34,129 nt of DNA. It comes from a virus. Where the stretch lies: the IMG/VR virus record IMGVR_UViG_3300018424_000092, positions 1 to 34,129 of that record. One strand, 5' to 3'. Shown here in pieces: positions 1 to 26,100 of the stretch (positions are counted from its first letter, which is position 1; each line of letters begins with the position of its first letter). The notes under the pieces are model-generated. The model saw nothing but the letters and a program-made list of their open reading frames with translations. It did no database searches and had not been told where the DNA came from. Position numbers and translations under genes: made by a program.

Positions 1-32
1 AATTAAAGTTACTCACCTTGAGATTGTCCCTA
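1..32 (+). repeat. 32-bp direct repeat, copy 1 (5' leader of the 87-aa gene)
   Basis: These 32 bases are identical to positions 378-409, and GTGTAAG follows in both copies. Both copies lie just upstream of a small gene, so this is a duplicated leader cassette. The copy is cut by the window edge, so the left arm of the hairpin seen at copy 2 would lie outside. Confidence 0.9.
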
Positions 33-51
33 AGGTGTAAGGGTGAGCAAC
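8..51 (+). repeat. Competing hairpins in the leader of the 87-aa gene
   Basis: Two mutually exclusive stems are visible. CTCACC (12-17) pairs with GGTGAG (42-47), extended by GTT (8-10) with AAC (49-51). CACCTT (14-19) pairs instead with AAGGTG (32-37). The right arm of the repeat hairpin (16-27) overlaps both. This arrangement could switch between folds, but that is inference from pairing only. Confidence 0.5.
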
Positions 52-351: not shown

Positions 352-367
352 TTACATAAGCACCACA
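352..367 (+). repeat. TTACATAAGCACCACA spacer motif, copy 1
   Basis: This post-stop motif recurs as TTACATAAGGACCGC at 610-624 and TTAACATAAGCACCACA at 1005-1021. Each copy lies in the spacer after a small gene. It could be a processing or regulatory site. Confidence 0.6.
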
Positions 368-609: not shown

Positions 610-624
610 TTACATAAGGACCGC
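610..624 (+). repeat. TTACATAAGGACCGC spacer motif, copy 2
   Basis: Second copy of the ACATAAG(C/G)ACC(A/G)C motif, a few bases after the stop of the 54-aa gene. It runs into the left arm of the following hairpin. Confidence 0.55.
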
Positions 625-647
625 CTAGTTCCTTATACAAACTAGGC
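623..647 (+). repeat. Hairpin downstream of the 54-aa gene
   Basis: GCCTAGTT (623-630) pairs perfectly with AACTAGGC (640-647) around a 9-nt loop. There is no U-tract, so it more likely protects or processes the mRNA than terminates transcription. Confidence 0.7.
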
Positions 648-654
648 AACACAT

Positions 655-705
655 TCCCACTCTGGTGAGCACTTTATGTGTGAGGGTTCGATTCTCTCAG
701 TGGGG
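655..705 (+). other. tRNA-like minihelix (acceptor stem plus canonical T-arm, no D or anticodon arm)
   Basis: TCCCACT (655-661) pairs with AGTGGGG (699-705) as a 7-bp acceptor stem with one G-U pair at the end. Directly inside its 3' strand is a canonical T-arm: GAGGG (682-686), loop TTCGATT (687-693), CTCTC (694-698). The loop fits the TTCRANY consensus and the spacing matches a true tRNA. Only 20 nt (662-681) fill the place of the D arm, anticodon arm and variable loop; they can form a small stem GCAC/GTGT around TTTAT. No CCA is encoded. It is either a tRNA remnant or a selected tRNA-mimicking RNA, and it cannot decode as it stands. Confidence 0.65.
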
Positions 706-738
706 TAAAAAACACACACTTTGATTAACACTTTCATC

Positions 739-6457: not shown

Positions 6458-9400
6458 ATGTTAGAAAAAAGAGTTAAAATTTCTTCCATACTGAACAATC
6501 AGTTACCAGAATTTGTTAGATCAGAATTTCCTCAATTATCGGAATTCTTATCCCAGTACTATAAGTCATTGGAATCTGGGGGTAATCCCTATGATTTAAT
6601 GAATAACATTGATCAGTATGTTAAAGTTGATAATATTGCAAATTTAATTAACTCTACTACATTATCTTCTAATGTTGAATTTTTTGATACTACTATTACT
6701 GTAGAATCCACTGCAGGATTTGCTGATAGTTATGGTCTCATTCAAATCGACAATGAAATCATTTCTTATGAAAGTAAAACTGCAACAACTTTTGAAAATT
6801 GCTACAGAGGATTTTCTGGAGTAACTTCGTATAATACCAATACATCAACTGACGAATTAACATTTTCAGAGTCTGAAACCGCAGAGCATACTTCAGGTTC
6901 CACCGTAATCAATTTAAATACTGTTTTATTATCCGAATTTTTCACAAAAGTAAAAACTCAAATTACTCCTGGATTCGAAAACAGATCATTTTTTGATGAT
7001 TTGAATAAGAGAACTTTTGTAAAGCAGTCTAATAACTTTTATAGTTCTAAAGGAACCAAAGAATCGTTTAGAATTCTATTTGGTGCATTATACGGCAAAC
7101 CTTCTGAAATAATTCTACCAAAAGATTATCTATTAGAACCTTCTGCATCTTCATATAGGGTAACAAAAGATTTTGTTGTTGAAAAAATTCAAGGCGATCC
7201 TTTAGATTTAGAGAATAGAACTCTCTATAATTTGGATGGTTCTAGTGGAACTGTAACATCAGTACAGGAAATTGAGATTTCTAATCTTTTTAGAGATAGT
7301 GTATTTCTTGATGATACATCAGAATTTTCTTCTGAAGCACTTACAAAGTCTTATTATCTTATTGGCATAGACTTTGATTATGATAAAGACATTGATGCCA
7401 GAGGAACAACCACAGGAAATTTCTCTATTCATCCAAAAACTAGATTAGTTTCTAGAGCATTTTCTGGAGATACTTATCTGGATGTAGATTCCACATTAGG
7501 ATTTCCAAGTAGCGGTTCTCTTTTGGTCAATCAACCAAATGGTTCTGTTGTAAACATTACTTATCAATCAAAAACAATAAATCAGTTTCTTGGTTGTGAT
7601 GGAATAAATCAAACAATAAATCCCAGAGAAGAGATAAAAGACACTTCATACTCTTTTGCTTTTGATGGAGATGATGAAATTAGAGTAAGGATTACTGGTG
7701 TAATTTCTGAATTAGATTATGATGATAGCAAAAACTTAAAAACTGGAGATGTTATAAAATCATCCACTTTAGGTAAGAGTGACTTAAATTCTCCGAAGTT
7801 TGATAGCTGGATTTATAATGTATCTTCTAGTTATGAGATTGAGAGCATTGTTGCATTAGAAGATACATCAGATAATACTTATCGTGTTAGAACTTATGAT
7901 AAAAATGATTTCAACATTGGCGACAGATTTGAATTAACCAATTCAAATGCATCTGGAATTATTCAAGCAGTAAACAATGAGAATACTGTAGTTATTAGGG
8001 GTCAAGGAGAGATACAAAAAGATTCTTCTGATAACTTCATTTTCACTTCTATTCGCAAATTAATTTCTAAACCAGAAATTGTAAATTATCCAGAATTGTC
8101 TATCTACAATTCAAATGTTTCGAATACTTATTATGATAGAACTGATGGATCTGTATATGTAACATCACCTTCATTGCCAAATTATAATGATACTAAAATT
8201 AGAATTACTGATCTGAGTGTCTCTGTATCTTCATTTGGAACTGATGATGAAAATAAAAAAACGATTATAAACTTAAACGTATCTGCATCACACTCATTTT
8301 TGACTGGTGATTTGGTTATACTAAAAGCAACTAATGGGCAAGAGATTGGTTATGTAAAGAGAATTGATGAGAAAACAATAAAAATTGCAAAAAATAAAGA
8401 ATTAATTATTTCAGATACCTTTTTAGATTTTTCAAATTATACTTCTACTGGAGCAAAAGTCGAATTCTTCAGATTCAATGAATTAAATCAAGATACTAAT
8501 TCTTATGAATCAAAATTATTGCAACCACAAAAGTTAATTAGAAAATTACAATCTCCAGTAAATACCAAAGAAATTTCTGAGACAAAATCAGGAGCTATTG
8601 GTATTTTCATTAATGGCGTAGAGATTCAAAATTATAAATCTGAAGATTATCTATACTATGGTGAAATAAAGTCTATAGATGTAACTTCTGGTGGTCTTGG
8701 GTATGATGTAATTAATCCACCAGAAGTAAGTATTGATTCTTCTTCCGGTTCTGGGGCAGTTGTTACTGCTTCTGTATCTGGTTCGTTGGAAAGAATTGAT
8801 GTTATAGATTCTGGATTCAATTACTTAGAAACTCCAAAGGTAATTATTGAAGGTGGTAATGGATCTGGAGCTAGCGCAGAAGCAAATTTAATACAATATG
8901 ATTATTCTAAATCAGTAATTGTTAATACGCAATCTCTTAGTGGAAATCAAATTACTTTTGAAGATGCTCATAATTTTTCCGACTTAGAAGAAGTGATTTA
9001 TGATCCAGGACAAAATAATGTAATTTCTGGATTATCCACGAACTCAACTTATTACGTTAAAGTAGTAGGAATTAACACGATAAAATTATATAATACAGAA
9101 GAAAGTTTTTCAAATGATGATTTTATTTCTATCGCAGCTTCTGGGGATTTAGGAAGTCAAACCTTCAAATCTAAACTGAAAAAAAGAAAAGTATCTTCTA
9201 TCAATGTTGTAAGTGGTGGTTCTGGATATACTAATAAAAAATTAATTGCTTTTTCATCAAAATCTGGAATTAACACTGCATCTGATACAATCACTATAAA
9301 AAATCATGGATTTGAGTATAGAGAAAAAGTTGTTTATACATCAAATGAAACTTCTATTGGTGGATTAACTACAAATACAACATATTTTGTAAATCCACTC

Positions 9401-12400
9401 GATAAAGATACATTTAGACTTTATGAAATTTCCTCTAGTGGTAACGAAGATTTTCTTTTAGAATCGGATCAATATGTAGATTTAACTTCTACTGGTGGGG
9501 AAGAACACATTTTCAATTATCCTCCAATAACAGTTAAAGTCATTGGAGATCTTCAAATTCCAACATCAAATACATCATCAACAAATTTCGAATGTGAAAT
9601 TCAACCCATTTTCAGAGGAGAAGTAAAATCATTATTTGTGGAAGATGGTGGATCACAATATGGAAATCAAGAAATTATTAATTATAGAGAGCAACCGAAC
9701 ATATTATTAAAATCTGGTAAAAATGGTGATGTTGGAGTAACTATTGAAAATGGAAGAATAACATCTGCGTTTGTTTTGGATCCTGGCATTGAATATAACT
9801 CACCTCCTACTTTAGTTGTTAATGGTGAAGGAAGAGGTGCAGTTTTAGTTCCAGTTATTCAATCTGGGCAAATTGTTGATGTAATTGTATCTTCTAGTGG
9901 AGTGGGATATAATAAAAATACTACCTCTGTAGATGTTTTATCCGCTGGAGAAGAAGCAAAGTTATTCACCAACATTCAATCTTGGAATATTCTAGCACCT
10001 AAAAGATATCCTTCACTTCTCAGTATATTCAATACTGCAAAGAACGGCGATGATGGTTATTTAATTGCTGGAAGTAGAGGAGGTCTTCAATATACACATT
10101 TTTATGCTAGTAGACCTTTAAGATCTCAACTTTTAAGTACTTATTTTGTTAATGGTGTTAAGTCATTCACATCAGATATTTTATCGGATGATCTTCAGGA
10201 AGGTAATGTTCTTTCTCATTCTGGGATAATTGGATGGGCATATGATGGAAATCCAATTTATGGACCATATGCATATGCAAATACTGATGGAACTGGTGGA
10301 ATAAAATTAATGACCTCGGGTTATAGATTGAATACTTCTACTAGTTCAAATAGACCTTCTGCTTCTGAATTTGGACTTGCATTTAACAATGGTCTATTTT
10401 TAGAAGATTATGTATTTGACAATTCTGGAGATCTTGATGTTCATAATGGAAGATTTTGTATAACGCCAGAATTTCCTAATGGTGTATATGCTTACTTTAC
10501 ATCATTCGAATCTGATTTAAATGATGATGGAGATAGAGTACCTTCTTTCCCATATTTGATTGGTAATAGTTATAAATCATTCCCAATTGACTTTAACTAT
10601 GATTTTACTTCAAATCAAGATCAACTTGACATAAACACTCAAAATTGGTTGAGAAATACGAAACCATATAATGAAGATAAAGAAAGAAGTACTTATGACT
10701 ATTTCTTGAATTCTTCAAATTTAACTATTGATTCTGAAGTTAAATCTACAACTTCTGGTAAAATTGAAGATTTAATAGTAAAAATTTCTGGTGATGGGTA
10801 TAAAGTTGGCGATTCTATAATTGCTAATGATAAAAATGACAAAATTGGAGAAGTATCTAAAATTTTAGGAAAAACTGTTGAAAGTATAGGTATTTCAACA
10901 ATCATTTCTATTCAGAATGTAGAGTTCTATAAAGAGAATTCTTCTTATGTTGGATATTCATCTTCTCCTCATAATTTTGTAGATAAAACTAATGTTAATG
11001 TATTTTCTCCTTTAGAATCTCCACAATATCTTTTAGCAAATGTAGACGAAAAAACTTTTAGATTATTTTCAGGAATTTCTTCAATTACCGATACTGGAAT
11101 TTCAACTTTCCTTTATGTTTCTGGAAATTTTTCTGAAGTTAGAGAAAATGACATTTATAAAATTGGAAATGAAGAAATAAAGATTCTCTCTATAGATTCA
11201 GTATCTTCTAGATTTAGAGTTCTCAGGGCACAAAATGGAACCAGTGGATTATCTTCATATTCTTCAGGTTCTATTCTTACAGAAAAACCTAGAAGAATTA
11301 AATTGAACTATAAAGTATCAAATACTTATAGTTCTGAGGTAAATAAAGAAATTTATTTCAATCCTTCAGAATCTGTGGGAATCGGTACTTCATTTGGTGT
11401 CGGAATAACATCTACGCTTTATTTTTCAAATCCAGGAGTAGGTGACACAACAGTAACAATTCCGACTAGAGCAATTTATCTTCCAAATCATGGATTGGAA
11501 AGTGGAGATTTGCTCTCATACACTACAAATGAAGGAGATTCTATTGAAGTATTAGAATATGGTTCTATTGTTTCTACTGGATTAACGTCATTTAACTCTC
11601 TTTACGCTACAAAATTTACTAATGACACTATTGGTTTATCTACACTTCCTGTAGGATTGAATTCTTTGGGTAACTATACTGGAATAGGTTCTACTCCAGC
11701 AAACTTACTTTTCTTTACTGGAATAGGAACTAATACATACCATAGTTTTAAAACTTCAAAGGATAATGTACTGACGGCAAAACTTTTGAAAAATATTGTC
11801 AATGTTTCAGTTGCAGAATCTCATGGTTTGTCTTTATTGTCTACTGTTGATGTAGAAGTTATACCTAAAAATACAAAGACAGTAGTAGTAAAATATAATG
11901 ATACTAATAGAAGATTTGTAATAGATCCGCTAAATGTTTCTTCTACAGATTTGCAAGATAATACATTAGTAATTAGTAATCATCAATTAAGTTTTGGAGA
12001 AAAGGTTTTATTTGAAAAGACTAGTGGATTTGATGGATTGGTGAATGAAAAACTTTACTATGTAACACCCGTGGATTCGAGTTCATTTAAACTTTCCACA
12101 AATTCTTACAATCTGAATAATAAAGTTTATGTAGATATTACATCTACTGGTACTGGAGGAGCAATTTCAAAAATTAATCCTGAAATAAATGTAGCAGAGT
12201 ATCAAAAATTAAAATTTGACTTATCCGATAGTAGTCTTTCCTATTCTACAGGAGGTTCTTCTTTAGAGGAAGCATTTGAACTAGAACTTTTCTTTGATGA
12301 GAATTTCTTAGATAAAATTTATCCTTCCAATAATGAAAGTTATAAAATAACAACTAATGGAAAAGTTGGAGTGGATGCTGATGCTAATTTAACATTAGAA

Positions 12401-15400
12401 ATAAATTCAGATACCAAGAAAAAATTATTTTACAAACTAACTCCACTTTTAACGGGAACAAATACTATTAAAAAGGAATTAATTGTTGATAATGATCAAA
12501 TTAACTTTAGTGCGATTAATTTAGTAGCAAGTAAATTTAATGGAACTTACAAAGTTACTGATGTAGTTGGTATTAATACATTCTCTTATGAATTGAGGAA
12601 TTATCCTGAGAAAGAATCTTATAATTCTTCAGAAGCAACTTTTAAATATTCAACAACAAATACCACTTTGACTGGACCAATTTCTGAAGTAGTATTGAAA
12701 AATAAAAACTTCGAATTTTCTTCAATACCAGAGATTTCTATACAAAGTGATTCTGGAAAGGATGGATATGTTTATGCATCTTCAGGTTCTATTGGTAAAA
12801 TCAAAACTTACTATTTTGATTCCATAGGTTTCAATTATTCAATAGATTCTACTATTAATCCTTCAGCAAAAATTCCAACTGTATTGGAATTAGATTCTTT
12901 GTCAATTTTTGATAAGGTAGAAGTTTTAACAAAAGGATTTTCCTATATTACCGATACTGATTTAGTAGTAATTGATGGATTGACAAAAAAAGTTGTTAAT
13001 GACGTTAAGTTGGAGTATTTACCAAGTGAAGGTAAAGTATCCATATTAAAAAATACTGCAGGAATAAATCAAGTTCAACCTAGATTAGTACCGATTTCTA
13101 ACTCAAATGGATTAAAAATTTCGAACATAACTTATGATTCCGTATTAAAAACTGTAACAGTTACACTAGAAACACAATTTAGTTCTTTTGATGATTTTCC
13201 TTTTGAAGTTGGGAATAAAGTTTTTATTGAAGGTGTTGCAATTAATGAACCAGAAATAGGAGTAGATGCAAAATCTTATAATTCATCAGAATTTGATTAC
13301 AATCTTTTTGAAATTACAGAAATTGATCCAAATATTGGCGGTATTAATGCAAACTTTACTTATAGTGTATCGGACTTTATTGAAACAGACCAAATCTTAG
13401 GAATTTTTAATTCTGATTTATCTAATGCTCAGGCAATACCAGAATCATATTTTCCAACTTTTAATTCTATACTCAAGCAATCTAATTTTATTGAAAGTGA
13501 AAGAATCATTTCAAACAACTCTACAGGAATTGTTCAAACTTGGAATTTCCAACCAGGTGTTCTTATAGTTGCTTCTTCGGATAAATTTGAAATTGGTGCT
13601 ACTTTAATTGGTGAAACAAGTGGAACTAAGTCTGTTATTAAAAACTTAATAGAGTCAAATGGTTACTATAAAATTTCCGATTCTTCAGATAGAAGAAAGG
13701 GGTGGAAATTCGAGAAAGGATTTTTAAATGACACTTTCCAAAGAATACATGATAACGATTACTATCAGTATTTTTCATATGTTGTTAAATCAGAAATTCC
13801 TTTAGAAACCTGGAATGACCCAGTTTCTTCTTTGAATCATACCGCCGGATTTAAGAAGTTCTCTACTTTAGAAATTCCATCATCTCCTGATGTTAATAGT
13901 GGAATCTCTACGGATCAAAATTTTGGATCTATAGGAGCGATTCAGAATTTAGATTCTGTTATTGATTTGGATTGCGTATTCAATTTTGATTTAGCTAGAG
14001 AAAACTTATTTACAATTGGAGATTTAACCACATCAAATCAAATTATCTTTAATTCCAGATCAATTCAAGATTATAAAGAATCTTCTGGAAATAGAGTTCT
14101 TGATATTGATGATATTTCAGAGTTTTTCAATAGTAACCCAAGATCTGAACCATTTACAGTGGTTAACAAAAAACCCTTTACTGACGTTCGTTATGTGAAG
14201 TATTTTGTTTCTGTAAGAGATCAGTTATTTTCTGATGAATCTATGTTCAACATAGTTTCTGTAATTCATGATGATTTATTTGTTTATGCAAATCAATATG
14301 CAAAAGTATATTCTAAAGATGACTTAGGTTATTTTGATGCTAGAATTGTTTCGGAAAACTTAGAATTGCTTTTCTATCCAGATAATTTTACTATCAATAA
14401 TTATAACTTGAACGTATGTAGTTTTAATTTGGATGAAACTATTTCTGGAATTGGAACATTATCTTTAGGTGATGTAGTATCACTAAACACCCATAAGACA
14501 ACTTTACCACAAGGAACATCAGGAATTTCTACAATTGTTTCTGTTGGAAGCACTTATAGAGCATTGAAACTTCACACTTTAATTTGTGATACTGATAATA
14601 GGGAATATGAATCCGTAGAGATGAATATTATTCATGATGATACTAATGTATATATCACAGATTATGCAAGTTTGGAGACAAATTTCTCATCTTCGTATGG
14701 AACTGGAATAGGAACATTTGATGCTTCTATTTCGGGTTCAGATCTGATAGTTTCATTTACACCAAATGTATCTACTGCTTCCACATATACAATAAATTCA
14801 TTGTCTATTGGAATTGCAAATACATCTGCAACTGGAGTGGCAACAAATGCAATGTTACAAAATTACATTGAATCCGAATACATTGCAATCTCTTCTTCAC
14901 CATCTCCATCTACAGTAGCAATTTCTTCTTTTGCTGGAAGTAATTACAATTCAGCATACTACGCAGTTTCTATTGAAGATTCTACAAATAATCAATACCA
15001 ATTTAGTGAAGTTGTATCTCTATTCAACCCAACTTTAGATACATCCGATCAAGTAGAGTATGGTATTGTAAATACTGGTTCTAATTTGGGAATTTTATCA
15101 ACTGGAACTATTGGTTCTGGTGCATCTGAAAAAGTTGTATTGTTCTTTACTCCAGATGCTGACATTGATTATGAAATAAGGTTGTTTAAGTTTGTTTTTG
15201 GAAATGCTCAGCAATATGATTTTATTGGAATTGAATCGGGCAAAACCGAAATTGAGCAGGATTTTGGATTATATACTGGAACTCTTAATGATGTTAAGAA
15301 GTCTTTTAATCTTACTCATCAAGATAATCCAATCTTCAAAAAAATCTTTGACGGGTCAAGCACAGATTATATTGATTTGGATGAAGATACTTTCTCAGTT

Positions 15401-18400
15401 CCAAATCACTTCTTTGCTACTGGAGAAGAGGTTGTATATAATCAGGGAGGAGAATTCGGTTCTCCAGTAGGAATAGCAACAACAACTATTCCTGGAATAG
15501 GTTCTACTGACATTCTTCCACCATCAGTTTATGTTGTCAAGATTAATGATTTAAGTATTAGAGTTTCTGGTTCTGCAACTGATGCATTAACCGTTCCTCC
15601 TGTTTACTTAGACATTACAAATACTGGAGTCGGAACAGATCATCAGTTTAATTCACTTAAGCAAAACACTAAATCATTAGTTTCTATCGATAATGTAATT
15701 CAATCTCCAGTAGTGTCTACTGCAAAAACTGCATTGCTTACAGCAGATGTAACAACTATTAATAACATTGTTCCTGTAGATAATGCATTAGAGTTGAATA
15801 GTGGAGATTATTTGAAGATCAATGATGAGATTGTCCAAATAAATGTTGTAAACTATCAAAACATTACAAATAATCTTTTAGTTACAAGAAATCAATTTGG
15901 AACAGTAGTTGACAATCATTTATTTGGAACTATTATTAGAAAAGTTCAGGCAAATTATAACATTGTAGATAATACAATTTATTTTGCAGAGGCACCTAAG
16001 GGAGAAGTTCCTAATGAAAACCCATCTGACCCAGAAGAAGTTGATTACAATACTATAAAAACTTCTTCAACATTTAGTGGGAGAATTTTCCTAAAGTCAG
16101 GAGTGGAAGGAACTGGAATAACTCCTTACAGCAATAACTACATCTTTGATTCTGTTTCCGATCAATTCAATGGCATTAATGATACCTTTACTATTCAGTC
16201 TGATGGACAAGATGTTGTGGGAATTTCTACTAATAATGGAGTTACTTTAATTGGAAGTGTTCTTCAGCAACCTGCTAGAGACAGTGTTATTCCAATTCAA
16301 GGTTCTTATGACCTTGTAGAGTCTGCAGGAATAACCTCTATAACCTTCACAGGAGACCCTGTACAAGCAAGTTATGATGTTAATACATCTAGCATACCCA
16401 GAGGTGGTATTATTGTTTCTGTTGGTTCTTCTGCCGGATTTGGATATCAACCATTAGTTTCTGCTGGTGGCACTGCCATTATTTCTGGTCTTGGAACAGT
16501 TTCTTCTGTAAGTATTGGAAATAGTGGATCTGGTTACAGAGCAGGAATTCAAACAGTAAATGTTGGTGTTACTACTGAAATTTCTGAAATTCCCACTGTT
16601 CAGTTTATTGGAACTGCCGTCGTCAACAATGGTAATGTTATTTCTGTAGACATTACAGAAAGTGTAGGTGGTTTCATAGCATCTATGCCTCCAACAGTAG
16701 TGTTTGATGCTCCATTAGCATACTCAAATATACCTCTGATTTATAGTTCATCTACTCCACAAGCAGGCATTGGTACACAGGCAACTATCGACATTCAAGT
16801 AAGTTTGGATAGTAGTGTTCTCAACTTCGAAATACAAAATTATGGGTATTCATACAAAAAAGATGACATTCTTACTGTTCCTATTAATGGACTAGAAGGA
16901 ATTCCAACAGATTCTTCATTATCATTCCAAGAATTCCAAATCTCTATTGAAGAAACATATGAAGATGAAATTGCTTCTTGGCATTTTGGTAAGATAATTT
17001 CTATTGACCCGATTGATGATTTGATTAATGGCAATAGAAGGTTCTTCCCTCTTAAAATTGATGGGAAACAAACTTCATTCGAAGCAAAACCAGGATCCAA
17101 TCTAAATCTTGCAAACAACTTTATTATTACTATCAATGACATTCTTCAAGTTCCAGGTGAATCTTACATCTTCAATGGAGGTAGTGTAATTGAGTTCATA
17201 GAAGCACCTCAATCTTTTGATGATAGAACATCAAAACTGACTAATGTAACTACTTCTAAGATTTTATTCTATGAAGGTACTAATGAGATTGATGTTAGAG
17301 ATGTTGATATTTTAGAAACTGTGAAAGTTGGCGATACCCTTAGATTGGATTCTGATGATCAAAATTTAAAAGAAAAATCTAGAGTTGTCAATGAAATTAT
17401 TTCATCAGATGCTGTTAGAACTAATGTTTATTCTGGTAGGGGAATTTCAGATGATGAAAATCTTCTCAGAAATGCAATTTGGTGTAAGCAAAGAAACGAT
17501 TTATTCTTGTCTTCAGCATCATTTGTTGGATCTGCAAGTTCTTCTAGAGGATTCTTAGTTTCTAAGGCAAGATCTTCTTTATCACCAAGTATAAACCCTT
17601 CTGCATACTTGATAAAAGATCTTTCTGTTTCCGATAATGTATTGTTTGTCGATAACTTAAAGACTTTCTTTGATAGTTTTGATGAACTTGGTGCAATTGA
17701 TGACTCCTTTAAAACCATTAAAATCTTCAATCAAGATAATTTGGTTTCGTGTGCAGCTACTGCTGTAGTATCTTCGGCAGGAACGATAACTTCTATAGAA
17801 ATCAATGAAGGTGGTATTGGTTACAGTACAACACCTTCAGTTACAATTTCATCTCCAGTTGGAGTTGGAACAACTGCTACTGCTACTGCAACATTATCTG
17901 GTTCTTCAGTTTCTGGAATAAGTCTTACAAATTCTGGTTCTGGTTATACATCATCTACACCACCATCAGTCCTTGTAGAGTTCCCAGAAAGAACTTTTGA
18001 AACTATTGATAAAGTGGAGTATGAAGGAGACTTTGGTATTGTTACTGGAATTGCAACTACTTCTATTGTTGGAGTAAATACTGGAATAATCTTTGATTTG
18101 TTTATCCCAGAAAACTCATTTATTAGAGATTCTGAAATAACGGGTTCTGCATCTACTTCTATAAGTGGGATTCAGACTGGATACTACTTCACTATTAGAA
18201 ATAGTAATGTTGGTTATGGATTAACTTCACTCGATGAAAATGATGAAATTATTGGAGTTGGATCTACATTCATAGATAATGTTTATAGAGTATCACAAGT
18301 TTCTATTGCACAAACTACAGTTACTGGAGTAGGAACTACATCTATTGCACAAGTAGTTGTAAGCGTATCTGATTACAATGGTCTAGTAAGTTTGGGACAA

Positions 18401-18559
18401 ACATATTATTATGGTGATTACAGTTGGGGTAGAATTAGCAATTTGATTAGACCTGATGCAAAACAATTTGATGTTTATCAAAACGGAATTTCTGGAATTG
18501 AAACATCTCCAATTGTTCAGAGATATAAACCATTAAAGAATGATCTTTATTTCTCATAA
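6458..18559 (+). CDS. gp7: Giant 4033-aa virion protein, probable expanded gp7-like baseplate wedge protein
   Basis: The gene lies between gp6 and gp8, where T4 has gene 7. Residues about 193-210 (NFYSSKGTKESFRILF) match the DFYSTKGIEASYKFLF stretch I recall from T4 gp7. Residues 2435-2468 (YFSYVVKSEIPLETW, then V-x-x-L-x-H-x-x-GF) match its later SYYVMKIKSNLPSSRW region. About 2,100 residues separate them, where T4 has roughly a hundred. That stretch holds SGG-x-GY beads (about 744, 918, 1146), modules with NHG, YYV/YFV and ITSTG, R-G-x-x-GT modules, and a YHYH-type motif GWAYDGNPIYGPYAY (1259-1273). About 1,550 further residues carry more beads. No signal peptide or membrane span is apparent. 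The wedge role rests on synteny and these two segments. Confidence 0.75.
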   Translation: MLEKRVKISSILNNQLPEFVRSEFPQLSEFLSQYYKSLESGGNPYDLMNNIDQYVKVDNIANLINSTTLSSNVEFFDTTITVESTAGFADSYGLIQIDNEIISYESKTATTFENCYRGFSGVTSYNTNTSTDELTFSESETAEHTSGSTVINLNTVLLSEFFTKVKTQITPGFENRSFFDDLNKRTFVKQSNNFYSSKGTKESFRILFGALYGKPSEIILPKDYLLEPSASSYRVTKDFVVEKIQGDPLDLENRTLYNLDGSSGTVTSVQEIEISNLFRDSVFLDDTSEFSSEALTKSYYLIGIDFDYDKDIDARGTTTGNFSIHPKTRLVSRAFSGDTYLDVDSTLGFPSSGSLLVNQPNGSVVNITYQSKTINQFLGCDGINQTINPREEIKDTSYSFAFDGDDEIRVRITGVISELDYDDSKNLKTGDVIKSSTLGKSDLNSPKFDSWIYNVSSSYEIESIVALEDTSDNTYRVRTYDKNDFNIGDRFELTNSNASGIIQAVNNENTVVIRGQGEIQKDSSDNFIFTSIRKLISKPEIVNYPELSIYNSNVSNTYYDRTDGSVYVTSPSLPNYNDTKIRITDLSVSVSSFGTDDENKKTIINLNVSASHSFLTGDLVILKATNGQEIGYVKRIDEKTIKIAKNKELIISDTFLDFSNYTSTGAKVEFFRFNELNQDTNSYESKLLQPQKLIRKLQSPVNTKEISETKSGAIGIFINGVEIQNYKSEDYLYYGEIKSIDVTSGGLGYDVINPPEVSIDSSSGSGAVVTASVSGSLERIDVIDSGFNYLETPKVIIEGGNGSGASAEANLIQYDYSKSVIVNTQSLSGNQITFEDAHNFSDLEEVIYDPGQNNVISGLSTNSTYYVKVVGINTIKLYNTEESFSNDDFISIAASGDLGSQTFKSKLKKRKVSSINVVSGGSGYTNKKLIAFSSKSGINTASDTITIKNHGFEYREKVVYTSNETSIGGLTTNTTYFVNPLDKDTFRLYEISSSGNEDFLLESDQYVDLTSTGGEEHIFNYPPITVKVIGDLQIPTSNTSSTNFECEIQPIFRGEVKSLFVEDGGSQYGNQEIINYREQPNILLKSGKNGDVGVTIENGRITSAFVLDPGIEYNSPPTLVVNGEGRGAVLVPVIQSGQIVDVIVSSSGVGYNKNTTSVDVLSAGEEAKLFTNIQSWNILAPKRYPSLLSIFNTAKNGDDGYLIAGSRGGLQYTHFYASRPLRSQLLSTYFVNGVKSFTSDILSDDLQEGNVLSHSGIIGWAYDGNPIYGPYAYANTDGTGGIKLMTSGYRLNTSTSSNRPSASEFGLAFNNGLFLEDYVFDNSGDLDVHNGRFCITPEFPNGVYAYFTSFESDLNDDGDRVPSFPYLIGNSYKSFPIDFNYDFTSNQDQLDINTQNWLRNTKPYNEDKERSTYDYFLNSSNLTIDSEVKSTTSGKIEDLIVKISGDGYKVGDSIIANDKNDKIGEVSKILGKTVESIGISTIISIQNVEFYKENSSYVGYSSSPHNFVDKTNVNVFSPLESPQYLLANVDEKTFRLFSGISSITDTGISTFLYVSGNFSEVRENDIYKIGNEEIKILSIDSVSSRFRVLRAQNGTSGLSSYSSGSILTEKPRRIKLNYKVSNTYSSEVNKEIYFNPSESVGIGTSFGVGITSTLYFSNPGVGDTTVTIPTRAIYLPNHGLESGDLLSYTTNEGDSIEVLEYGSIVSTGLTSFNSLYATKFTNDTIGLSTLPVGLNSLGNYTGIGSTPANLLFFTGIGTNTYHSFKTSKDNVLTAKLLKNIVNVSVAESHGLSLLSTVDVEVIPKNTKTVVVKYNDTNRRFVIDPLNVSSTDLQDNTLVISNHQLSFGEKVLFEKTSGFDGLVNEKLYYVTPVDSSSFKLSTNSYNLNNKVYVDITSTGTGGAISKINPEINVAEYQKLKFDLSDSSLSYSTGGSSLEEAFELELFFDENFLDKIYPSNNESYKITTNGKVGVDADANLTLEINSDTKKKLFYKLTPLLTGTNTIKKELIVDNDQINFSAINLVASKFNGTYKVTDVVGINTFSYELRNYPEKESYNSSEATFKYSTTNTTLTGPISEVVLKNKNFEFSSIPEISIQSDSGKDGYVYASSGSIGKIKTYYFDSIGFNYSIDSTINPSAKIPTVLELDSLSIFDKVEVLTKGFSYITDTDLVVIDGLTKKVVNDVKLEYLPSEGKVSILKNTAGINQVQPRLVPISNSNGLKISNITYDSVLKTVTVTLETQFSSFDDFPFEVGNKVFIEGVAINEPEIGVDAKSYNSSEFDYNLFEITEIDPNIGGINANFTYSVSDFIETDQILGIFNSDLSNAQAIPESYFPTFNSILKQSNFIESERIISNNSTGIVQTWNFQPGVLIVASSDKFEIGATLIGETSGTKSVIKNLIESNGYYKISDSSDRRKGWKFEKGFLNDTFQRIHDNDYYQYFSYVVKSEIPLETWNDPVSSLNHTAGFKKFSTLEIPSSPDVNSGISTDQNFGSIGAIQNLDSVIDLDCVFNFDLARENLFTIGDLTTSNQIIFNSRSIQDYKESSGNRVLDIDDISEFFNSNPRSEPFTVVNKKPFTDVRYVKYFVSVRDQLFSDESMFNIVSVIHDDLFVYANQYAKVYSKDDLGYFDARIVSENLELLFYPDNFTINNYNLNVCSFNLDETISGIGTLSLGDVVSLNTHKTTLPQGTSGISTIVSVGSTYRALKLHTLICDTDNREYESVEMNIIHDDTNVYITDYASLETNFSSSYGTGIGTFDASISGSDLIVSFTPNVSTASTYTINSLSIGIANTSATGVATNAMLQNYIESEYIAISSSPSPSTVAISSFAGSNYNSAYYAVSIEDSTNNQYQFSEVVSLFNPTLDTSDQVEYGIVNTGSNLGILSTGTIGSGASEKVVLFFTPDADIDYEIRLFKFVFGNAQQYDFIGIESGKTEIEQDFGLYTGTLNDVKKSFNLTHQDNPIFKKIFDGSSTDYIDLDEDTFSVPNHFFATGEEVVYNQGGEFGSPVGIATTTIPGIGSTDILPPSVYVVKINDLSIRVSGSATDALTVPPVYLDITNTGVGTDHQFNSLKQNTKSLVSIDNVIQSPVVSTAKTALLTADVTTINNIVPVDNALELNSGDYLKINDEIVQINVVNYQNITNNLLVTRNQFGTVVDNHLFGTIIRKVQANYNIVDNTIYFAEAPKGEVPNENPSDPEEVDYNTIKTSSTFSGRIFLKSGVEGTGITPYSNNYIFDSVSDQFNGINDTFTIQSDGQDVVGISTNNGVTLIGSVLQQPARDSVIPIQGSYDLVESAGITSITFTGDPVQASYDVNTSSIPRGGIIVSVGSSAGFGYQPLVSAGGTAIISGLGTVSSVSIGNSGSGYRAGIQTVNVGVTTEISEIPTVQFIGTAVVNNGNVISVDITESVGGFIASMPPTVVFDAPLAYSNIPLIYSSSTPQAGIGTQATIDIQVSLDSSVLNFEIQNYGYSYKKDDILTVPINGLEGIPTDSSLSFQEFQISIEETYEDEIASWHFGKIISIDPIDDLINGNRRFFPLKIDGKQTSFEAKPGSNLNLANNFIITINDILQVPGESYIFNGGSVIEFIEAPQSFDDRTSKLTNVTTSKILFYEGTNEIDVRDVDILETVKVGDTLRLDSDDQNLKEKSRVVNEIISSDAVRTNVYSGRGISDDENLLRNAIWCKQRNDLFLSSASFVGSASSSRGFLVSKARSSLSPSINPSAYLIKDLSVSDNVLFVDNLKTFFDSFDELGAIDDSFKTIKIFNQDNLVSCAATAVVSSAGTITSIEINEGGIGYSTTPSVTISSPVGVGTTATATATLSGSSVSGISLTNSGSGYTSSTPPSVLVEFPERTFETIDKVEYEGDFGIVTGIATTSIVGVNTGIIFDLFIPENSFIRDSEITGSASTSISGIQTGYYFTIRNSNVGYGLTSLDENDEIIGVGSTFIDNVYRVSQVSIAQTTVTGVGTTSIAQVVVSVSDYNGLVSLGQTYYYGDYSWGRISNLIRPDAKQFDVYQNGISGIETSPIVQRYKPLKNDLYFS

Positions 18560-20171: not shown

Positions 20172-23100
20172 ATGTCACAGGAAACTAATCTCAACGTCTC
20201 ACCTTATTTTGACGATTTTGATCCCCAGAAAGATTACTATAAAGTATTATTCAAACCAGGGTATCCTGTCCAAGCTAGAGAATTAAACACTTTACAGTCG
20301 ATTGCTCAGAATCAAACTGAGCAATTTGGTAAGCATATCTTTAAAGAAGGGTCTGTAGTAATACCTGGACAGTTAAAGTATGAAAATCCGTTATATGCTG
20401 TTCAAATTGAATCGGAATTTAATGGTATTCCAATATCTTCTTACTTCAATGATCTTAAGGGAGTAAAAATAAAAGGTTTTACTAGTGGAGTTAGTGCAGA
20501 AGTAGTACTTTTATTGACTAATTCTGATTCCGAAAGAGGTAATTATACTTTATATGTAAAATACCTTGGTAGTGGTGGTGATAATTTTGATACTAAAACT
20601 TTTTTAAGTTCTGAGACTTTAATTTTAGAATCTGATGTTTCTTTTGGTTCCAATAGTTTTCTTCAAACAGGTGAGGGTTTTGCTAACACTATTTCAGAAA
20701 ATGCTGTAACTGAAGGAAGTGCTGTAAGTATTTCTGAAGGTGTCTATTTTGTTAGAGGAGTTTTTGCAAGGGTAAAATCTCAAACAATTATTTTGGATCA
20801 GTATGGAATCACTCCATCATATAAAGTTGGATTTGATGTTTTAGAAACTATTGTCAATTCTGATGAAGATGATACTTTATTTGACAATTCTAAAGGATTT
20901 TCTAACTTTGCTGCACCAGGAGCAGATAGATTCAAAATAGAACTTAAGTTATCAAAGAGAGAGATTGATGACTTAAATACCGATTCTTTTGTAGAAATAC
21001 TAAGAGTAGAAAATGCTGCTCCACAGTTTTTTGATGAAGATCCTCAATATAATTTAATTAGAGATGAATTAGCAAGAAGAACTTATGATGAATCTGGAGA
21101 CTATTTTGTAAAACCCTTTACGGTCAATGTTAGAGATAGTCTCAATGACAGAGTATTAAATAGAGGAATTTATTTTGAAGGTCAAACTACTTCAGAAGGA
21201 AATATTCCATCTGAAGATTCAATGGTCTATCAGATTGGTCCAGGAAAGGCATATGTTAGAGGATATGATGTTGAGACTATTTCTCCAACTTTAATAGACG
21301 TAAAAAAAGCAAGAACAACTGAAAAATCTCCACAGATTAATCTAAACTACAATTCTGGCACTTTAGCGATTTTAAATAATGGTACTGGTGCTCCATCAAT
21401 AGGACTTGGAACTGATTCTGTTGTCTATCTTCAAGATGAGCGTAAGGGTTCTGATTCTAACGTAGCAGCTGGTACTACTATTGGCGTTGCAAGAGTTTAT
21501 GATTTTGTTCCTGAGAGTGATTATGTAGATCAAACAAGCAGATTGCAGTTACGTCTTTTTGACATTAGAACATATACTACTGTTGGATTGACCACTTCAA
21601 TTCCTGGAGGATTATCATTACCAGCATTTATTAGAGGTAAAAATAGTAATGCTACTGGATTTCTCAAAACTGCTTTGGGGCCTTCAGATACAGAAATGAC
21701 TCTCTATGAAACCACAGGTAATTTCTTAGAGAATGAGCAGATAGTTATTAATGGTATTGATAATGGTAGATTAATCAATTCGGTGACTGATTACTCAGTT
21801 TCTGACATTAAATCAGTTTATGCAACAAATTCTGTTGGACTATCGACATTTAATGCAGACTTAGTTCTTTCGAAGAAATCATATATTGCAAAACCAGGAA
21901 CAACTTTCAAAGTAGATAATGGTGTTGTCTCTGCTGGACTAGACACTAAGTTTACTAATATAGTAAAAGTAGGTGATATAGTTTCGTATGCTAGCACTGA
22001 ATTTACTGGAGATCCTATTTACAATAGAGTAACTGATGTAGGCATTGCAGGAACAAACTTTACAATTTCTTCAATTACTGATGTATCTGGAGTTTGTAAT
22101 GGTACTCTTCCTTCTGGATCTTTTGAAGTAACTAATATTCTTAAGTATCAACCAAGTCTAAAATCTCGAAACAATTCACTTTTAACAAAATTAAATCATG
22201 AGAATGTCTCTGAAATCAGTTTAAATGAGACTGAAATTATTCAGAGAAGAACTTTTAATGTTGCAAGTTTTACTGGTTCTTCTTTTAGTATTACTATAGA
22301 TGCAGATGATGTCGATTTATTCTTCGAATCTTTTGATGAAGATAGATATTTAATTTCTTATGAGGATGGGACTACAGAATTGATGAGAGCAGATAAGTTC
22401 TTATTATCTCTCGATGGAAAAACTGTAACTTTCAATGGTTTATCGAAGGCGAGTGGAAGTAACGCTGAAGTCATCGCTACAGTTAAAAACATAAAACCAA
22501 GTTCAAAAAATAAAAAATTAAACAAAGTTGGTAAAATAACTATTGAAAATTCATCATCAGTTGCTTCTGGTATTGGAACAACAACTCTAAATGATGGATT
22601 ATCTTATAGTAATGTATATGGAACTAGAGTACAAGATAAAGAAATTAGTTTAAATGTACCTGATGTTGTTAGGGTTTTAGCAGTTTATGAATCCAATGAT
22701 ACTTCTAATCCCACTCTTCCCCAATTGCAATTAACTGGATCCTCTGGAAATTCTAACTATATCGTTGGCGAGCACATAGAAGGAAAAACTTCAGGTGCTG
22801 TTGCACTGGTGACTTCTAAGGTTGGTGTAGATAAGTTAGAATACGTTTATTTAAATACCAGTCAATTTTCTTTAGGAGAAGTCATTTTTGGAAAAGATTC
22901 CAAAGAAGAATCATTACTATCTTTAAAAATACTTTCAGATAAAAACATTACTCAAAACTTTGATTTTGATAATGGACAAAGAGATACATTCTATGATTTC
23001 TCAAGAATTCTCAGGAGACAAGGTGTAGAATCTCCAAAGAAGAAACTGACAGTTGTATTCCAAAATTACACTATTGACTCTTCAGATACTGGAGAATTTA

Positions 23101-26100
23101 TTACTGCAAATAGTTATTCGCAAGAAAACTTTAAGCACGATGTAGGTTTCTATCAAGGTTCAAGATTAACTGATTTTGTTGACATAAGACCAAGAGTTGC
23201 TCCATATACATTAACAAATAAGTCTCCATTTGAATTCGATTCGAGAAATTTTGCATCTGATGGGCAGTATTCTGAGTATATTTTAGTTCCTGATGAAAAT
23301 ATTCTTCTGGATTATGAGTATTATGTTGGTAGAATTGATACTATTTTCTTAAATCCCGATGGACAGTTCCAGATTCTTTCTGGAGAGCCATCGGCAAATC
23401 CACAACCAGCAGAATCTATATCTACTGGATTGAGTATTGCTACGGTATTCATTCCCCCATATGTATTCAATACAAAGAACATAAATGTGCTGATGTCGGT
23501 GCATAAAAGATATAGAATGGAAGACATCTCATTATTGGAAGATAGAATTCATAGAGTAGAAAGATTTACCACTCTTTCTATGCTTGAGTCTAAAACTGAA
23601 AACTTTATGATTAGAGACGCAGAAACTGGATTGGACAGATTTAAGTGCGGATTCTTCGTAGATAATTTTAGCAATCATGCTTATCACGATTTAATTAATC
23701 CCAATTTTAAAGCAGCAATTGACACATCATCAAATGCATTAAGACCAAGACATTATACAACTTCATTAGATCTTCAATTAGGTTCAGAAGTCATTGAGGG
23801 ATTTACTAGCACATTTACACCAAATGCAGATTCTAGTTTTGTATCTGATTTAGGATCTGTAAATGTTAGAAAGACTGGTGATTTGGTTACTCTAAACTAT
23901 GATTCTGTTCTTTACTTTGAACAACCATACGGAACTAAAACTGAAAGCGTTACTCCATTCTTAGTTAGGTACTGGCAAGGAAGTATTCAACTTAATCCTC
24001 CAGTTGATGTTTGGTTTGATGAAGTTGCTAGAGAAACAAATGCTACTCAAGAAGTCGTTAATCGCGTTGAGAGAGAAGATGAAAACATAACCGTTGTTAA
24101 TAATGTAACTGTAGACAATGAAGTTTTCGTTGGTGCAGGTGAAGTTCAACCTGTTCCTCAAACAGGAATTGCTCCTTTTGATTGGATTCAAAATGCAAGA
24201 GACATTGTTAATAACCTTCCCTCAACACTTTCCACCAAAAGAGCGAAACTGGGTGGATTAAGTATAGTAGTTGACAATAATAAAAACTCATCTAATGTTA
24301 GAAGTTCTGGAGCAGGTGAAAGAAAGTCCGTCATTGGTACTGATATAATTCATTTAAATGTATGGAAATCTAGTGTCAAACAAGCAGATAGAGACCTAAT
24401 CAATCAACTTCTTCCTCCAGATGCTGCTACTCAATTCTTAACTGCTATTGATACTAAAAATTGGAAAAGAAGAGCTGTTATAAACTTCATACCTTCAACT
24501 GGTGCTACTACTGTCACAGAAACTAACACTAGTGTAGAAACTACTACATCTACAGAAACAACTAGTGATGTATCAACTATTATAATTCCAGAAGAAATTA
24601 TAACAGATACAAATACTGAAACATCAACTGAGAACTTTACTGAAGAAGTTAGATTCCTTAGAAGTAGAAACATTGAGTTTGATACTACTGGATTAAGACC
24701 AAGAACAAGATTTTATCCGTTCTTTGAGGGTATAGATGTAAGCAATTACGTTATTCCAAAATTATTAGAAATTGAGATGATTTCTGGTAGTTTTACTGTA
24801 GGAGAAACTGTAATTAGTGATCCAGTAAGAAACGTCTCTAAAGAAATTTCATTTAGATTATGCACTCCAAATCATAAGTCAGGTCCATTTGATGGAACTG
24901 GAGATGGAACTGTTTTTAAATTGAATCCTTATACTTTACAGTCATTTGAAAACTCATATACAGCATCATCTACACTTCTCAATGTAGATACAAGGTCTCT
25001 GGAATTACCAGAAGAAACTGAATATTATGGTTGGATTGAGGAAAATATGAGGTTAATTGGTAAAGATTCGGGTGCTGTAGCAGAAATTAAATCTACAAGA
25101 TTAATCTCTGATAATAGTGGAAGACTTATTGGATCATTGTTTATCGTAAATCCAAATGTACCTGAAAATCCAAGATGGATTAATGGTGAAAATACTTTCA
25201 CTCTTATTGATACTCCTTCTTTAAGCAATTTGAATCAAGTATTCAATGAATTTACACCAAATCAAAGAATTACTGAAAGTGGAGGTGAAGCAGAATTCAC
25301 ATCTGCGGGAACTATTAATATAACTCAAACAAATATTCTCACAACTAGAAACGTAACAGTTCTTAGTTCGTTCAATAGAAATACAACTACTATTACAAAT
25401 ACAACAACAAATACAACTACAACTACTGAAACTACTACAACCACAACTACTCCAGGAAGTGGTGGTGGTGGTCAGATTGCTGTTTGGGAAAACCACGATC
25501 CACTAGCACAGTCTTTCTATGTTAGAGATAATACTGGAATTTTCTTAACTGATGTTGAAGTATTCTTTGAAACTAAAGATGAGGAACTTCCTGTAACACT
25601 TCAAATTCGTCCAATGATTGCTGGTGTTCCTAGCAATGAAGTTGTTCCCTTCTCGGAAGTTACTCTTGATCCCGATCAAGTAGTTCTTTCTGCTGATGGT
25701 AGTGTTCCAACTAAGTTCACTTTCCCATCTCCAGTATATCTTCCTGGACCACAAAGTCTTGAAGTTCGTTCTGCACCAATTGCAAGTCAACAAAGTTCAG
25801 TATTCTCAGTAGTTCTTTTATCAGGAAGTCCTAATTATAGAGTATACATTGCAGAATTGGGACAAGATGACATCCAGACTGGGATAAAAATTTCTAAGCA
25901 ACCAACATTGGGTAGTTTGTTTAAGTCTCAAAATGGTTCTACTTGGACTCCATCTCAATTGGAGGATATGAAGTACAGACTGTATAGAGCAGACTTTACT
26001 ACTAATCCAGGTCTTGTCAAGTTCTTTAATCCAAAACTTGGCGTTGGAAATAAAAAAGTAACTGTAACTGGAACTAATCAATTCTTACCTCTTTCCAAGA

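Follow-up and report, generated by a model that had tools for sequence, protein, structure and literature searches.

Between two small protein genes of a cyanophage lies a run of 51 nucleotides that pairs like the acceptor stem and T-arm of a transfer RNA, with a 20-nt insert where the D and anticodon arms would stand. The question raised by this locus is whether the resemblance serves the phage as part of a messenger RNA, marks a site for host tRNA nucleases, or is a residue of tRNA decay or of chance. The window, by which we mean the whole stretch of DNA analysed, is a virus record of 34,129 bases. We assign it to a T4-like cyanophage on the basis of the baseplate wedge proteins and ferredoxin-like gene that follow its small-gene region, and of its DNA matches, which are to Synechococcus and Prochlorococcus phages. 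Small genes occupy the first 1.3 kb (81-344, encoding a DUF7249 protein, 442-606, 739-960 and 1049-1207), and the element sits in the spacer between the second and third of these. Further along, two very long open reading frames (6458-18559 and 20172-27998; 4033 and 2608 aa) lie amid the baseplate genes, and their products are probably tail or adhesion proteins.

Results

Architecture of the element and its flanks

The original prediction placed a 7-bp acceptor stem with a terminal G-U, a 5-bp T-stem, a TTCGATT loop and tRNA-like spacing between them at 655-705, and each was confirmed at those positions. The features are collected in Table 1, with reference to L007 (IMGVR_UViG_3300007541_000228), a divergent viral contig that carries the same element.

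Table 1. Features of the small-gene region surrounding the tRNA-like element, in window coordinates
Feature	Position	Strand	Remarks
Upstream small ORF, 54 aa	442..606	+	without known family; close relatives in 4 viral contigs
Hairpin H0	623..647	+	stem GCCTAGTT 623-630 / AACTAGGC 640-647, loop CCTTATACA; one base upstream of the 649-706 block
S1, 5' strand ACACAT	649..654	+	pairable with ATGTGT 676-681; adjoins the acceptor stem; conservation with L007 begins here
Acceptor-like stem, 5' strand TCCCACT	655..661	+	pairs with AGTGGGG 699-705; T655-G705 is a G-U pair
Loop CTGGTGAGCACTTT	662..675	+	resembles D-loop/3' D-stem (GGT-GAGC); L007 lacks one T
Alternative mini-anticodon-like stem	669..681	+	GCAC 669-672 / GTGT 678-681; mutually exclusive with S1
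S1, 3' strand ATGTGT	676..681	+	identical in L007
T-arm GAGGG-TTCGATT-CTCTC	682..698	+	GAGAG in L007 (G-U to A-U)
Acceptor-like stem, 3' strand AGTGGGG	699..705	+	followed by T706, without CCA; L007 has T-CCA
Unstructured leader	706..738	+	one G in 33 nt; no clear Shine-Dalgarno
Downstream KTSC-like gene, 73 aa	739..960	+	phrog_4357; one homologue annotated KTSC; presumably the gene served by the leader

The T-stem (GAGGG 682-686 / CTCTC 694-698) contains one further G-U pair, the T-loop at 687-693 matches the consensus TTCRANY, and the T-arm stacks directly upon the acceptor stem (698/699). The half of a tRNA made of a 7-bp acceptor stacked on a T-arm with a consensus loop is thus present, and in its form this acceptor-T-stem minihelix is that of an RNase P or RNase Z substrate. 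A D-arm and a 5-bp anticodon arm with a 7-nt loop are absent from the insert at 662-681, and neither ARAGORN nor the Rfam tRNA model recognised the 655-705 region as a tRNA gene. The earlier statement that these arms are missing is therefore upheld, but the insert is not featureless, as it can form either a mini-stem (4 bp with a 5-nt loop at most; the loop is 4 nt in L007) or the pairing S1 with the 5' flank. When S1 is formed, it runs into the acceptor and T-stem contiguously and without gaps (654/655, 681/682, 698/699), such that 649-706 can fold as an H-type pseudoknot with the T-arm held within its last loop. The minimum-energy fold of 649-706 (-16.5 kcal/mol) uses the mini-stem GCAC/GTGT, the preference of nested energy models for S1 or the mini-stem changes with the length of RNA folded, and the folding energy of the block is ordinary (z -0.44). 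The loop CTGGTGAGCAC looks like the D-loop and 3' D-stem of a tRNA; it is from this likeness that we guess at a tRNA ancestry for the element, and the leader fold is probably tRNA-derived. Some pairing of the 706-738 stretch is predicted when longer RNA is folded.

Upstream of the block, four of the eight pairs of hairpin H0 are altered on both sides relative to L007, yet all still pair and the loop is nearly kept; this covariation argues that the spacer acts as RNA. A promoter scan returned no sigma-70-type match just upstream of the element, which suits co-transcription with the preceding gene. The hexamer TATACA (634-639) was considered as a -10 box with a start at the knot, and was rejected on the negative promoter scan and on the TACACA found in L004. 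A start at the knot is likewise difficult to reconcile with some copies of the type B leader (described below) that come directly after a stop codon, and no start site is claimed here. A pairing of ATAAGG (614-619) with CCTTAT (631-636) was also dismissed, since the ATAAG motif recurs where its partner is absent.

The small-gene region is rich in other repeats. The TTGAGATTGYCCCTAAGGTGTAAGGG block, possibly a phage promoter or operator, is repeated before several small genes (window 1-41 and 378-418; L018 and L021; L007 at 1153-1195, 2045-2090 and 2324-2370). The string TTACATAAGSACC occurs in three spacers (window 352-364, 610-622 and 1006-1018), in two of them soon after a stop codon, and at 365-404 the spacer preceding the 54-aa gene contains a near-perfect 12-bp inverted repeat, ACAATCTCAAGG ... 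CCTTGAGATTGT.

Conservation and specificity

Three contigs (L002-L004) are near-identical to the window, and as such the informative comparison is with L007, in which the adjacent gene is identical at 186 of 219 positions and differs at 11 of 33 fourfold sites (33%). Across 649-706, L007 departs from the window sequence at two places, with a single substitution and the loss of one T from the loop. The substitution converts the T-stem to GAGAG/CTCTC, so that a G-U pair becomes A-U, kept and strengthened. At the rate seen in fourfold sites, the probability of no more than two changes among 57 positions is ~4e-8, a figure that draws on few sites and allows for no block exchange. Identity to L007 is lost immediately before 649 and again immediately past 706; the conserved block extends beyond 655-705, and its edges match those of the fold with S1 included. 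Conservation of this block is disproportionate to that of the flanking sequence, and the sequence permits the fold, which is specific. As the surroundings of the start codon are also well conserved, a recent exchange of a block between lineages could mimic selection. In the alignment proposed in the original prediction, in which both stems should show compensatory change around a constant T-loop, the T-arm shows a pair-keeping change and a kept loop, and the acceptor offers no variation. Both S1 and the acceptor are invariant in all copies, and with two lineages known to carry the element (that of the window, and L007), neither has covariation to weigh.

Chance was assessed with 150 shuffled windows (both strands, inserts of 8-45 nt). 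A minihelix with a consensus T-loop arose in two of these (approximately 1 in 75), and a minihelix with a contiguous S1 in none, the latter being a post hoc figure as S1 was spotted afterwards. A minihelix is thus expected by chance at a rate that makes it suggestive only, and the real support is comparative: it is the conservation in L007 that carries a tRNA mimic beyond chance. A descriptor scan of 2.02 million bases (both strands counted) returned the element, in the window, L007 and identical copies, together with ten full-length tRNAs, all of them ordinary phage tRNAs on one contig; since nothing else was returned, the descriptor is specific. A blastn search of INPHARED with the element gave short matches only, mostly to the T-arms of unrelated tRNAs, and pattern scans of IMG/VR with the T-arm, stems or loop held fixed gave, beyond the known contigs, matches that we read as unrelated sequence. 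An exact search for the 3' half of the element among tRNAs found none in 84,980 species genomes, which argues against a recent origin from any host tRNA in those genomes. The covariance model R2, run on 22 records, matched convincingly in the window, L003 and L007 only. A weak R2 match in L154 (E 0.004) and the other R2 matches did not resemble the fold, and L111 and L114, in which a partial acceptor/T-arm likeness was noticed by eye, yielded neither a full fold with the descriptor nor useful phage homology. Read from the sequence, the tRNA-like leader is real, specific and conserved in two lineages, and is neither a tRNA gene nor a member of a known Rfam family.

Leaders of related loci

IMG/VR contains 28 to 37 relatives of the KTSC-like gene, among which the element is confined to the window lineage and L007. 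At the same site, the others carry leaders of three further types or still other leaders, several of them pseudoknots unrelated to the element. Type B (AGAG-AA-TGAG-ATGCG-CTCT-AAAGACA-CTCA), type C (AGCGGG-GG-TGATG-CAT-CCCGCT-CAAAACA-CATCA) and type D (TGAC-C-TGGTG-AT-GTCA-TAAAACC-CACCA) are each readable as an H-type pseudoknot, and in types B and C the two interleaved helices both show compensatory change. For type B, eight compensated cells were counted over nine rows, some closely related, with a score reached in none of 500 shuffles and with slid controls lower; the B'' leaders (GGGGAACGGCAGCGCCC...), in which the second B helix is not formed, were excluded from these counts. For type C, there are two variable pairs, both compensated.

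Type B (GAGAATGAGATGCGCTCTAAAGACACTCA), for which no Rfam match was found, is a small pseudoknot of T4-like cyanophages that is not restricted to the KTSC-like gene: in the L007 contig it lies before a paralogue and one additional gene, and in the isolate DSL-LC02 before parB and a second gene. Its sites include L007:1506-1535, L146, and L138/L109 and L139 (DSL-LC02), and it occurs further in leaders of L005, L006, L008, L009, L012, L013, L016, L061 and L064. Type C stands before the KTSC-like gene in L010, L022-L029, L057 and L060, with a second copy at L022:4539. Several type C copies have a promoter-like TTGACA-TATACT pair just upstream, the -35 of which sits in a palindrome that is altered on both sides between contigs. 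In four distant isolates, S-CAM1, Sf-FR1, S-CAM3 and S-RIM32 (L035, L036, L037 and L038), a long A/T-rich spacer containing many inverted repeats precedes the KTSC-like gene.

In all leader types the distance from structure to AUG is 21-34 bases and the intervening sequence is G-poor. As each type thus pairs a compact structure with an open initiation region, we interpret the tRNA-like block as one of several interchangeable forms of a leader module. The original prediction was to be refuted by relatives that carry the flanking genes and lack the stems; most relatives are of this kind, although divergent L007 keeps both stems. The ACACAT/ATGTGT pairing, the covarying upstream hairpin and the exchange with other pseudoknots go beyond what had been predicted.

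Discussion

We consider it reasonably probable that the element acts in cis as a structured leader on the mRNA for the 73-aa KTSC-like protein, with a compact tRNA-like fold that would protect the 5' side, take part in processing and prepare translation. In such a leader, an acceptor stem and T-arm, with a pseudoknot or mini-stem substituting for the D and anticodon arms, would be followed by some 33 nt of unstructured, G-poor RNA and then by the AUG. The element would do the same job as the other knots of its relatives: it would set the KTSC-like gene apart from the message upstream, withstand nuclease trimming from the 5' side or determine its extent, and leave the ribosome-loading stretch accessible. 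Cyanobacteria possess the 5'-3' nuclease RNase J in addition to RNases E, P and Z (PMC10989914), and a cyanophage has been observed to raise host RNase E during infection (PMC9692554); protection of mRNA would therefore be a sensible need. Host RNase P or RNase Z might also recognise the tRNA-like version, which would place the 5' end of the mRNA near 655 or 707.

If such recognition were the whole purpose, the element would be where host tRNA nucleases process the transcript: RNase P ahead of 655, RNase Z behind 706, or both, would split the messages of the two genes and free a tRNA-like RNA of approximately 52 nt. The acceptor and T-arm together constitute the minimal recognition unit of RNase P, and the element has both. 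RNase P cuts H-type pseudoknots in vitro in loop 1 with a preference for U 5' of the cut, the T4/T2 gene 32 mRNA being a claimed natural substrate (PMC12710915), and U654 would supply the preferred base. The missing CCA is no obstacle, since the cyanobacterial enzyme prefers CCA-less substrates (PMC4264200), but the reported pseudoknot cleavage by the E. coli enzyme needed a 3' RCCA (PMC12710915), and S1, if formed, would pair the 5' leader up to the cut site. Most relatives moreover replace the element with structures that have no T-arm, so that tRNA processing is not the general need of the site, and we regard a dedicated processing site as doubtful. A combined reading, in which the leader is the tRNA-derived member of an interchangeable cyanophage set, a tRNA-like pseudoknot whose cleavage in vivo by host RNase P or RNase Z defines the downstream 5' end, appears unlikely; the action of RNase P on mRNA pseudoknots in vivo is itself stated to be an open matter (PMC12710915).

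A decayed tRNA or a chance minihelix of no present function would accord with the shuffled windows, with the D-loop-like string retained in the loop and with the small number of lineages that have the element. Near-identity to L007 across exactly 649-706, and the conservative nature of the stem change, speak against a functionless relic, and this explanation is very unlikely; of the earlier suggestion of a decayed tRNA, the ancestry stays plausible. It is also conceivable that the knot seeds the binding of a phage single-strand-binding protein, which then extends along the unstructured leader and shuts off initiation, in the manner of the T4 gene 32 translational operator, in which an H-type pseudoknot precedes an unstructured stretch that contains the start site (PMC535899). 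The phage studied here is T4-like, and its leader would follow this plan, with a 33-nt G-poor stretch (one G) before the AUG. The downstream gene, however, is not gene 32 and the UUAAA repeats of T4 are absent, such that this would be a candidate operator by analogy, and we judge it highly improbable.

The cis-acting leader that we favor has partial counterparts elsewhere. Armless mitochondrial tRNAs and mascRNA-type RNAs retain the acceptor and T-arm with the other arms reduced or lost; those are eukaryotic, whereas ours is an mRNA leader known from sequence alone. The tRNA-like structures of TYMV-type plant viruses are also viral RNA folds of an acceptor and T-arm assisted by a pseudoknot, and are RNase P substrates in vitro (PMC12710915). 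They differ in being 3'-terminal, CCA-ended and aminoacylated with the knot within the acceptor, while the phage element is internal to an mRNA of a DNA phage and its possible knot links the 5' flank to the insert. The gene 32 leader of T2 and T4, likewise from T4-like phage, would share the order of H-type pseudoknot, unstructured stretch and start codon (PMC12710915, PMC535899), but is without a T-arm and serves another gene, the likeness drawn here being one of layout. Structured 5' leaders are known from T4-like cyanophages in the manA and wcaG motifs (RF01745 and RF01761; PMC2864571), and an Rfam scan that included both models, at the gathering score, gave no match in the window or twelve related loci. 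None of the literature searched describes a cyanobacterial DNA phage with a tRNA-like fold in an mRNA leader.

Should cleavage by the host enzymes take place as in the combined reading above, the element would be a natural mRNA pseudoknot substrate for RNase P in vivo. The type B pseudoknot family, found before several cyanophage genes, may prove equal in usefulness to the original finding. Furthermore, in this group of phages the tRNA-like leader has been naturally swapped with plain pseudoknots before the same gene, which provides a ready-made comparison.
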